A DNA stretch of 64,000 nt from Phaeodactylum tricornutum CCAP 1055/1 (taxonomy: Eukaryota; Bacillariophyta; Bacillariophyceae; Surirellales; Neidiaceae). Each line of letters begins with the position of its first letter. Within the stretch, counting starts at the first letter, position 1. The notes beneath the pieces were generated by a model, which made no database searches, had not been told where the DNA came from, and saw only the letters and a program-made list of their open reading frames with translations. Below, in pieces: positions 54,846-57,696 of this stretch. The translations under genes and the position numbers were made by a program. The stretch lies in contig NC_011675.1 in NCBI RefSeq assembly GCF_000150955.2, positions 326,230 through 390,229 on the forward strand, written 5' to 3'.

Positions 54846-56123
54846 ATGGAAAATTCCTTGGGCGAACCCCAATCGAGCCAAATGGACCACGCTGTCGGAG
54901 CAACCTCGCGCTCGGCACCCACGCAACCTTTGTCGGCTACCACTTCAACTCCCAATAATGCCGCCGCTATTGCTAGCGATGCCGATGTTAAACACGAAAG
55001 CGATGACTGGAAACAGCAAAGAGACGTGGCCAAAGCTATGGGCGATCAAGCCTTTCGGGAAGGAAAGTTTGGCGACGCCATTCAACAGTATTCCTTGGCT
55101 CTTTCCTTGGATCCCGACCATGCCACGATTTTGAGCAACCGTTCGGCGGCATATCTCAAACGCGGCGAAAAATCTAAAGCCTTGCATGATGCCCAAGCAT
55201 GTGTCCGGATAGGCACCATGGGGGTCAAAGGTGCGAGTCGGCTCGCGGCCGCACTCCAGTCTTTGGGTAGATACGAGCAAGCGTTCACGGAATGGAATAT
55301 CATAGTGGCGAAAGACCCAACTCACGTGGCGGCAAAACAAGGCGTTGACACATGCCGGCCCCATGTGGAAGCGTCAGCTCGACAGAAGGAAGAAGAAGAA
55401 AGATTGGCCAAAGACGTAGGGGAGGGTGCAGACGAGGGTGATGAACTTGATGATTTTTTTAATGAGGTCGAGGAGGCGGCCCAGGAAGTGGTTCTGGCCA
55501 AAGTTGAAGAGGGCAAACCATTGGCGACAAATGCTATCAAAAATCAAAAACGGAACCTGGGGACGTCCGTACAACAGATTGATCGATTGTTGCAAGAAAA
55601 TTACAAATGGCGAAATCTCAATCCTTTTTTTGTTCTTGATTTGGATCACGTTGCTAACAAGGATGATATTTCGAGACGATACAAAGCCCTTTCTCTGCTC
55701 CTGCACCCTGACAAGAATCGGGATAACCCGCGCGCTCAAGACGCCTACGACGAGGTGCTAAAGGCAAAAGCAGCTTTGGATGATGAGCACAAGGCGAGTC
55801 ATGTACGTCAGTTGATTGAACAGGGCATGCGGCAGGGGAAGGCTGATTTCGACCGACTGGGTAGCTCTCATGGAGAGCAAACGCTGCAAAGTATGCAGTC
55901 CAAGGCTGTGCAAAAGATCTTTGCCCAAATTGAATTCAAGCGGCGGGAAATAGAGCAGAGAGAACGAAATTTCTCACAACGTGAGCAGCAAAAGGAGGAA
56001 GACGATCTCGAGAAGGAACGCAGCGCTCGGACGTTTGACAAGAACTGGAAACAAGAGGAACGAGTCGATAAACGTATTGGTAGTTGGCGAAACTTTCAAA
56101 ACAAAAGACCAAAGAAGGCGTAA
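54846..56123 (+). CDS. TPR plus J-domain protein, DNAJC8-like
   Basis: A 425-residue single-exon protein. Residues about 50-165 hold TPR repeats (AKAMGDQAFREGKFGDAIQQ, DHATILSNRSAAYLKRGEK, LQSLGRYEQAFTEW), the type that binds the EEVD tails of HSP70/HSP90. After an acidic linker comes a J domain (about 255-325) with NPFFVLDLDHVANKDDISRR and the HPDKN motif that stimulates HSP70. The C-terminus (KIFAQIEFKRREIEQRERNF and ending RIGSWRNFQNKRPKKA) is the distinctive tail of DNAJC8/SPF31, a spliceosome-associated J protein. The pairing of TPRs with a DNAJC8 tail in one protein is not the usual layout. The start is the ATG at 54846; the preceding codon is TTG. Confidence 0.8.
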   Translation: MENSLGEPQSSQMDHAVGATSRSAPTQPLSATTSTPNNAAAIASDADVKHESDDWKQQRDVAKAMGDQAFREGKFGDAIQQYSLALSLDPDHATILSNRSAAYLKRGEKSKALHDAQACVRIGTMGVKGASRLAAALQSLGRYEQAFTEWNIIVAKDPTHVAAKQGVDTCRPHVEASARQKEEEERLAKDVGEGADEGDELDDFFNEVEEAAQEVVLAKVEEGKPLATNAIKNQKRNLGTSVQQIDRLLQENYKWRNLNPFFVLDLDHVANKDDISRRYKALSLLLHPDKNRDNPRAQDAYDEVLKAKAALDDEHKASHVRQLIEQGMRQGKADFDRLGSSHGEQTLQSMQSKAVQKIFAQIEFKRREIEQRERNFSQREQQKEEDDLEKERSARTFDKNWKQEERVDKRIGSWRNFQNKRPKKA

Positions 56124-56308: not shown

Positions 56309-56346
56309 CTTCGAGCCCGCAAGCAATAAGGCTTGCCGACTGTCAT
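56309..56346 (-). promoter_or_regulatory. Candidate SECIS-like hairpin in the 3' UTR
   Basis: On the minus strand, 69 nt after the MsrA stop, ATGA (56346-56343) is followed by two 12-nt arms that pair at ten positions around a 6-nt loop, then GA on the 3' side. This echoes the SECIS quartet plus helix II. The loop lacks the usual AA and is short, and the lower helix is poor, so the call is weak. Confidence 0.3.
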
Positions 56347-56414: not shown

Positions 56415-57300
56415 CTAGAACATTTGAAGACCCCTGTTGCTGGTTTGCTTCTCCAAAAAGAACTGGTGGTATTCTTCACCGCGGTAAAACTTTGTCACAG
56501 GCTCAATGTCAACGTAGAGCTTGCGTTCACCGGAGTGTTTAGCGCTTAATTTGCCAACGAATTCCTTGGCCGACTTTGCCTGCTCTTCGGTCAAGTAAAA
56601 AACACCTGAACGGTATTGACGCTTTTGCGGCGAGTATGGGTAGTCCGCTTCTCCCCACTATACTTCAAAAGAACCACAAATTTTCATGTTAGCAACCATA
56701 CAACAAGCGACTTTCAAAATCAAAACATTTTTTTTATGGACTTGCCAGTTTGAGAATTTTTTCGTACGAGATCATGTCGGGGTTGTACTCGATCAGCACA
56801 GCTTCCGTATGGTCCTTTAAATGCGACCCAGCCATGTGTTAGAAGCAAAAATAGACTACGTTTTCGTTATTGTTTACGAGCAGCACATACCTTAATCGTT
56901 TGGTATGTCGGATCAGGCTCGTTTCCTCCGCTGTATCCCACGACACAGCGCGCAACTCCAGGCTCCTACTCACAATCAGAGCAACGCAAGCAGGATAAGT
57001 TTTTCATGAGGAGCCGATTGACCCAAAACACGATTGTCATGTTGAGAAAACGAATCAAAAGGTAGAACTACTTACAGTGCTCCATTGGAGTTGCGGATGC
57101 CAAAATCATCCACACGCAACAATGGCAACTTCGTTTCCTTTGGTCTGCGGTGACAAAGGAAGTTCGGGACAAATGTTCGAAGCTTGAAGTCCGAACGAAA
57201 AGGATCGACGCGCCATAATATCGCGTTTGCTGAGAAAAGCGCTAGAGGGAAATGAGACCCAGAGAAATAGAGTGGTGAATAGCGGAAACGAAGTTTTCAT
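56415..57300 (-). CDS. msrA: MsrA-like methionine sulfoxide reductase, probable selenoprotein (in-frame TGA)
   Basis: Four exons, 57300-57076, 56965-56891, 56814-56746 and 56657-56415, all in phase 0. The N-terminus is a signal peptide followed by SSAFLSK, a plastid import motif. The protein then reads EVAIVACG, TGA at codon 65 (57108-57106), FWHPQLQ, CVVGYSGGNEPDPTYQTIK, DHTEAVLIEYNPDMISYEKI, SPQKRQYRSGVFYLTEEQ and DIEPVTKFYRGEEYHQFFL, which is MsrA order throughout. The TGA sits at the position of the catalytic Cys in the GCFW motif. In several algal MsrA proteins this residue is selenocysteine, so Sec insertion is the best reading. A Ser or Cys codon changed to a stop would be the alternative, but the intact motifs and splice sites downstream argue for function. 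The third intron uses a GC donor (GCAAGT). The enzyme would repair oxidised methionine in the plastid. Confidence 0.82.
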
Positions 57301-57696
57301 GGTTATCCTCTAAGTCTTCACTGTCAACCAAAACATTGTCCTTTGTCCAAATAGCCCGGGCAGTCTTTTTGACAAGACACGACCAAACAAGACCGTATTG
57401 TGGATCCATGTTTCAAGGAGTTTAAATTTTTTGACAAACTTACAGTTAATTTAAAAGGCTCCATCGCTTCGTAGAACATACAATTATGAGCAAGGCGATG
57501 GAATCAGTCACGCATTTTTGGGTCTGCGGGTTGTCCAATCAGAACCCTTAGCACACACAGCCTCTATCCATTGTGTCGCCTTCTGTTCGTTTCATAAAAT
57601 ATATACCGTCCGGCCTTGCAAATCGTGCAAAGTAAGCGCATCGTTCCTTGCCCTATCACAACGCGTACCTATAGCACTCCAAACGTTTGAACGAAC
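57301..57696. other. Intergenic, divergent promoter region
   Basis: About 400 bp between the MsrA-like gene and NAD synthetase starts. No other gene. Confidence 0.4.

Follow-up and report, generated by a model that had tools for sequence, protein, structure and literature searches.

A TGA codon at the catalytic position of an MsrA gene in the diatom Phaeodactylum tricornutum probably encodes selenocysteine

Gene structure and the in-frame TGA

Is the in-frame TGA in an MsrA-like gene of the diatom Phaeodactylum tricornutum a stop that inactivated the gene, or is it a codon for selenocysteine (Sec)? The gene lies on the minus strand of a 64,000-nucleotide stretch of contig NC_011675.1 (C7:326230-390229), referred to here as the window. 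An earlier note, made from the letters of this stretch, had proposed that four exons encode a complete MsrA if the TGA at codon 65 is read through. Our profile and homology scans covered the genome of 27,450,724 bases in 88 contigs, and they lead us to the same view: the gene very probably encodes a selenoprotein MsrA in which UGA codon 65 is decoded as Sec.

The four exons join to 612 nucleotides (nt) in frame, giving 203 residues and a terminal TAG, with the TGA at codon 65 as the single internal one. Introns 1 and 2 are of the GT-AG type and intron 3 is GC-AG, with the donor GCAAGT. The open frame begins at 57309, and an in-frame stop stands four codons 5′ of the start ATG. When the TGA codon is rendered as Cys, residues 59-196 match PF01625 (PMSR) at 6.1e-33, scoring 114.7 bits against a cut-off of 23.7. 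The equivalog cut-off of NCBIfam TIGR00401, which is the naming model for msrA and not the definition of the family, was missed (103.0 versus 108.1 bits), and the protein was therefore filed under PF01625 instead. When aligned with solved MsrAs, the closest of which are from Clostridium oremlandii (CoMsrA), the TGA falls at the catalytic position, in agreement with the earlier note, which had placed it at the catalytic Cys of GCFW. Alignment with CoMsrA and homologues also locates the family motifs GCFW (here GUFW), GYxGG, the catalytic Glu region and QYRS. The claim that frame, splice sites and motifs stay intact past the TGA holds as well.

Two proteins from other contigs cover parts of the gene. 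P0001 (120 residues; 7 member sequences on 8 contigs, the longest of 2341 bases) is 98% identical to the part of MsrA that follows the TGA. It crosses junctions 2-3 and 3-4, spliced as predicted, and because it spans both, introns 2 and 3 are supported as drawn, the GC-AG one included. Such independent support is limited to these two of the three junctions. P0041 (64 residues) is identical to the residues before the TGA and ends exactly there. It occurs on two contigs, neither longer than 2287 bases, which are hence separate from the 1,029,019-base contig that carries the gene.

We also looked at the structure of one relative, P0053, the single member of the MsrA family that was modeled (mean predicted local distance difference test score, pLDDT, 91.3). 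Foldseek returned 45 matches to this model at E ≤ 0.001, with entry titles naming MsrA in every case except 7c13, which is titled for glutaredoxin; by sequence alignment, chain A of 7c13 is MsrA.

Selenocysteine machinery and other TGA genes

The presence of Sec machinery, which the earlier note had named as a check, was borne out for tRNA-Sec and EFSec. The same genome holds two tRNA-Sec genes with a TCA anticodon, together with matches to SepSecS (1.9e-75), SelD (1.9e-70) and the EFSec domain euk_SelB_III (6.4e-25). Matches interrupted by TGA were found for GPx (2 of 3), Rdx (1 of 3) and SelM (both of 2).

Some of these loci have features of their own. The two SelM-like genes, L031 (C88) and L032 (C8), are nearly identical and carry the in-frame TGA after CGG. 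SelD (L018, G000:C20:127810-128775, minus strand) is apparently a Cys form; its open frame of 523 residues, set beside a model of 311 positions, hints at a possible fusion with a further domain. A SepSecS-like stretch containing stops (L013/L014, G000:C5:914004-914586, minus strand) lies about 5 kb from the stop-free SepSecS gene and may be a decayed copy or an intron-bearing divergent gene.

A SECIS candidate downstream of the stop

Support that goes beyond the earlier note comes from a hairpin downstream of the gene. An ATGA at 56346, starting 68 nt 3′ of the MsrA stop, is followed by an arm of 11 nt containing a single G-G mismatch, by CC at the start of the apical loop, by the returning arm and by CGAA. 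We consider this segment (56346-56310) a good candidate, on sequence grounds, for a selenocysteine insertion sequence (SECIS). Under a descriptor requiring ATGA, AA or CC, and GA, it comes out top among the 247 sites that the two strands of the window contain, and the chance expectation is 0.0023 per 291 nt, a figure in which the MsrA hairpin itself is counted. The same descriptor gave a strong site in TGA gene L017 at an arm length of 14 and weaker sites in L031 and L032; nothing comparable turned up in TGA genes L016 and L021. According to passages of the 2007 search (PMC2375036), AA or CC was allowed 10–13 nt after the quartet and 15–39 nt before GA; the CC of the MsrA hairpin lies 11 nt after the quartet and 17 nt before GA. 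Our own version of the 2007 criteria accepts this hairpin and none of 12 Cys-gene controls.

A looser test asked for AUGA...NGA at -10 kcal/mol or better within 260 nt 3′ of the stop. All six TGA genes (five if the near-identical SelM copies are counted once) were positive, with the hairpin 15–101 nt past the stop, and none of the 12 Cys controls was; one control had a hairpin of -2.7. These counts are not blind, as the test was picked after the earlier SECIS results were known. The controls were L001-L007, L015, L018, L019, L033 and L034, with L020, L022-L027 and L035-L048 left out. Excluded from the TGA set were the stop-containing SepSecS-like copy (L013) and L038, which has stops in an apparent intron. 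Each control stop was taken as the first in-frame stop past the Pfam match, a rule that is wrong if an intron follows; the stop of L016 was set by hand.

The catalytic site among relatives

One list of 40 homologues and the best 120 of 5548 gave 131 proteins besides P0041. At the catalytic site, 42 of these have W and 10 have C, and 79 are without a GxFW site. The W residues we read as TGA translated under a code in which TGA means Trp; on that reading, every relative that displays the site has Cys or TGA there, which answers the comparison proposed in the earlier note. Most of the 79 begin downstream of the site, and about 20 of the 79 have unrelated residues before the next conserved stretch, probably translated intron. 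In four public diatom records the sequence appears truncated or garbled at the TGA. These are P0024 (Nitzschia inconspicua), P0077 (Thalassiosira sp.), P0061 (Conticribra weissflogii), which starts at FWHPQ, and P0064 (Cylindrotheca closterium), which lacks the catalytic motif segment. They fit the earlier note's warning that annotation stops at such codons or misses such genes.

Among the best 80 of at least 539 prokaryotic loci, the codon at this site is TGC or TGT in 71 and TGA in 6, with 3 undetermined. A quick IQ-TREE run on 91 rows, in which 25 of the 71 Cys loci from prokaryotes were represented, placed the diatom MsrA in a 44-row algal-side group (support 93) made up of 40 W rows, 3 C rows and the diatom MsrA itself. 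Inside this group it belongs to an inner group of 27 rows (99, starred). None of the seven full-length Cys MsrAs that this genome also encodes (L001-L007) joins the 44-row group, and neither do any of the 25 Cys rows from prokaryotes or the six bacterial TGA rows; these six belong to a distinct group of 12 rows (95, starred). L006 and L007 sit on long branches, with uncertain placement. A further MsrA-like gene in this genome (L129, G000:C29:188412-188693, plus strand) has GCFWHMQHEF and a signal-peptide-like leader and is of a different subfamily.

A conserved upstream Cys-Pro motif

In ordinary MsrA, the resolving Cys is located in the C-terminal stretch, within the last 25 residues or so. 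Only 2 of the 27 inner algal-group rows have a Cys there. A Cys-Pro pair stands 20–22 residues before the catalytic site in all 27; in the diatom protein it is Cys44-Pro45, 21 residues before Sec65. Among the outer algal-group rows, Cys-Pro occurs within 32 residues of the site in 15 of 17, one of the two misses starting too late to show it. On the prokaryote side it was seen in 0 of 9 protein rows (two with leaders too short to show the motif) and in 1 of 77 loci. Overall, 42 of 44 algal-side rows have the motif versus 1 of 86 prokaryote-side sequences. The P0053 model orders the Cys-Pro segment with confidence (block 11-20, mean pLDDT 94), and the segment precedes the part that aligns with CoMsrA (22-165).

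Cys44 is thus our candidate for the resolving Cys. The other Cys residues of the diatom MsrA could serve in its place: Cys63, two positions ahead of Sec, and Cys82. Of the 27 inner rows, 11 have Cys at the former position and 12 at the latter. Taken further, diatoms and related algae might share a plastid-imported family of Sec-MsrAs whose resolving Cys sits in an N-terminal Cys-Pro motif that prokaryotic relatives lack, a generalization that we put forward tentatively and think doubtful in its full form.

Presequence and location

The earlier note had also assigned the protein a diatom plastid presequence. The sequence elements of that claim are present: the N-terminus, MKTSFPLFTTLFLWVSFPSSA followed by FLSK, has a run of hydrophobic residues (ten-residue mean of 1.81 in a simple hydropathy and motif scan) and then SSAF, with the predicted cleavage between SSA and F. 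Plastid import is judged by a signal peptide whose cleavage site is followed, at +1, by F, W, Y or L (ASAFAP motif), and passages of PMC4329603 describe Phe at +1 as crucial for diatom plastid import. Import itself is the part that goes beyond these elements, and we regard it as likely. Leaders of 50 residues or more occur in 14 of the 44 algal-side rows, and 9 of these 14 have a hydrophobic stretch followed by the motif. One prokaryote-side row (P0101) passed the same scan, which is therefore not specific.

A Sec-MsrA residing elsewhere is the less favored, though still substantial, possibility. The protein could be retained in the secretory route through its signal peptide, or a start at Met29 could yield a mitochondrial or cytosolic form. 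Such a location would be compatible with the Asp and Met within the stretch after FLSK and with the leaders shorter than 50 residues in 30 of the 44 algal-side rows, which may reflect several locations or miscalled starts. It is further favored by the origin of the presequence call, a hydropathy and motif scan and not SignalP or ASAFind.

Proposed mechanism and alternative explanations

From the catalytic position of the TGA, the Sec machinery and the SECIS-like hairpin, we infer Sec insertion at codon 65 and catalysis by the resulting enzyme. The UGA would be decoded by tRNA-Sec and the eukaryotic Sec elongation factor, with the hairpin 68 nt past the true stop directing insertion. The signal peptide would then bring MsrA into the secretory route, and a transit peptide starting with Phe would most likely take it on into the plastid. 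Sec65 would attack methionine-S-sulfoxide in proteins, yielding methionine and a selenenic acid. More speculatively, Cys44 of the Cys-Pro motif might resolve the selenenic acid, with subsequent reduction by a plastid thioredoxin or glutaredoxin.

Several observations weigh against decoding as Sec. Ranked by energy alone, the MsrA hairpin comes fifth among the window's 105 ATGA sites, and its apical loop starts with CC instead of AA, a variant that passages of PMC3316567 report for the SECIS elements of mammalian SelM and SelO. Across the whole window, 24 sites in all pass our version of the 2007 criteria. In the five other TGA genes one site passes, in L031, 176 nt past the stop, and none does in L016, L017, L021 or L032; since other TGA genes so seldom pass these strict criteria, we gave more weight to the looser hairpin test. 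The Rfam SECIS models had no match near the MsrA gene at E up to 5 or 10 and, genome-wide, none above the gathering score, with two below it, neither at the MsrA gene. They also had no match in TGA genes L016, L017 and L021, and Rfam therefore says little either way here. Among the relatives, the TGA behind the 42 W residues is deduced from protein sequence and not from DNA. P0117 has Gly before FW, and P0003, a two-domain MsrA-like homologue, has Asp and Asn at its catalytic sites (GDFV and GNFL); it is apparently inactive or of other function.

The most obvious alternative is a pseudogene in which the TGA, which does break the reading frame, is a true inactivating stop. We consider this very improbable. 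Frame, splice sites and motifs are all intact downstream, P0001 retains near-complete identity and the predicted splicing, a hairpin follows the stop, and the GxFW site, where it is visible (52 of the 131 listed homologues), is occupied by W or C. A random mutation would have had to strike precisely the codon that is Sec in known relatives. A sequencing or assembly error in place of TGC or TGT is, if anything, less probable still. One chromosome assembly alone was read directly, but P0041 ends exactly at codon 65 on two other short contigs and P0001 starts after that codon, so a lone error in the chromosome assembly is unlikely. We give as little credence to the idea that a near-cognate tRNA reads the UGA without Sec. 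Insertion of Sec is deduced and not observed, and the other TGA genes rarely satisfy strict SECIS criteria as we implemented them, both of which leave some room for such readthrough. Against it, the genome encodes the Sec machinery, the hairpin is confined to TGA genes among the genes tested, and Trp at the nucleophile position of MsrA would make the enzyme inactive.

Relation to known MsrAs and significance

The earlier note's statement that Sec-MsrA is known in algae is correct. Published passages describe it in Thalassiosira pseudonana (the 2007 diatom case), Ostreococcus and Chlamydomonas (PMC2375036, PMC7539508, PMC7238072). On the reading proposed here, the diatom gene has in common with these an MsrA with Sec, a nuclear gene and a eukaryotic SECIS; plastid location and an upstream Cys are not discussed in those passages. 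We presume orthology to the T. pseudonana Sec-MsrA. PMC7539508, in the portion consulted, implies that four diatom genomes were surveyed, possibly including this one, and an excerpt of PMC5139114 gives T. pseudonana MsrA as up 2.2-fold in high light, without stating whether the Sec form is meant. CoMsrA (PDB 4lwj, 4u66, 7c13) is a native selenoprotein that, per passages of PMC4479559, lacks Cys and carries an extra helical domain at its C-terminus. In contrast, the diatom protein has Cys44, Cys63, Cys82 and an N-terminal presequence, and it ends soon past the catalytic domain. Poplar MsrA (PDB 2j89, whose entry title names cytosolic and plastidial forms) ranks first in Foldseek for the P0053 model, which suggests the same fold; we take it to be a Cys enzyme and not a Sec enzyme. 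L001-L007 likewise match PF01625 above the cut-off but, unlike the Sec-MsrA, have Cys at the site and fall outside the algal group.

The enzyme class is already known in diatoms, so the novelty is modest; what merits testing is plastid import and the arrangement of the Cys-Pro motif. In titles and abstracts of the open literature, with subscription papers and SPDB outside the search, we found no report of a plastid MsrA selenoprotein. Some diatoms require selenium as a nutrient, and photodamage commonly takes the form of methionine oxidation. A plastid Sec-MsrA, if real, would link selenium supply to photoprotection in a diatom. The conserved Cys-Pro motif offers a directly testable resolving-cysteine hypothesis, and the host can presumably be transformed. 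The family also points to an annotation problem, as records of relatives are often shortened at the TGA.

Feature coordinates and minor observations

Table 1. Features of the MsrA gene and its downstream region (positions in the window).
Feature	Positions	Strand	Basis
Exon 1: start codon, presequence, catalytic motif with Sec codon	57076..57300	-	Donor GTAAGT; identical 64-residue open reading frame P0041
Predicted signal peptide (residues 1-21), cleavage SSA/F, then transit-peptide-like stretch	57238..57300	-	Simple hydropathy and motif scan; motif as in passages of PMC4329603
Cys44 codon, conserved Cys-Pro motif, candidate resolving Cys	57169..57171	-	Counts across homologue rows and loci
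In-frame TGA, codon 65, catalytic Cys of GCFW motif	57106..57108	-	Exon join; alignment to solved MsrAs
Exon 2	56891..56965	-	P0001 reads splice to exon 3
Exon 3, then GC donor	56746..56814	-	P0001 reads splice to exon 4
Exon 4, ends with TAG	56415..56657	-	Contains PF01625 match
SECIS candidate: ATGA, 11-nt arm, CC opening apical loop, returning arm, CGAA	56310..56346	-	Descriptor and hairpin tests; no Rfam SECIS match

Judged by reading of their sequences, the neighboring genes are TPR/DnaJ-like (plus strand, ending at 56123) and glutamine-dependent NAD synthetase-like (plus strand, open frame from 57691). The two weak genome-wide SECIS_1 matches below the gathering score, L029 (G000:C11:324049-324109, minus strand, 20.4 bits) and L030 (G000:C18:489123-489187, plus strand, 19.1 bits), resemble by eye a canonical SECIS with AAA or AAAA and possibly belong to other selenoprotein genes.
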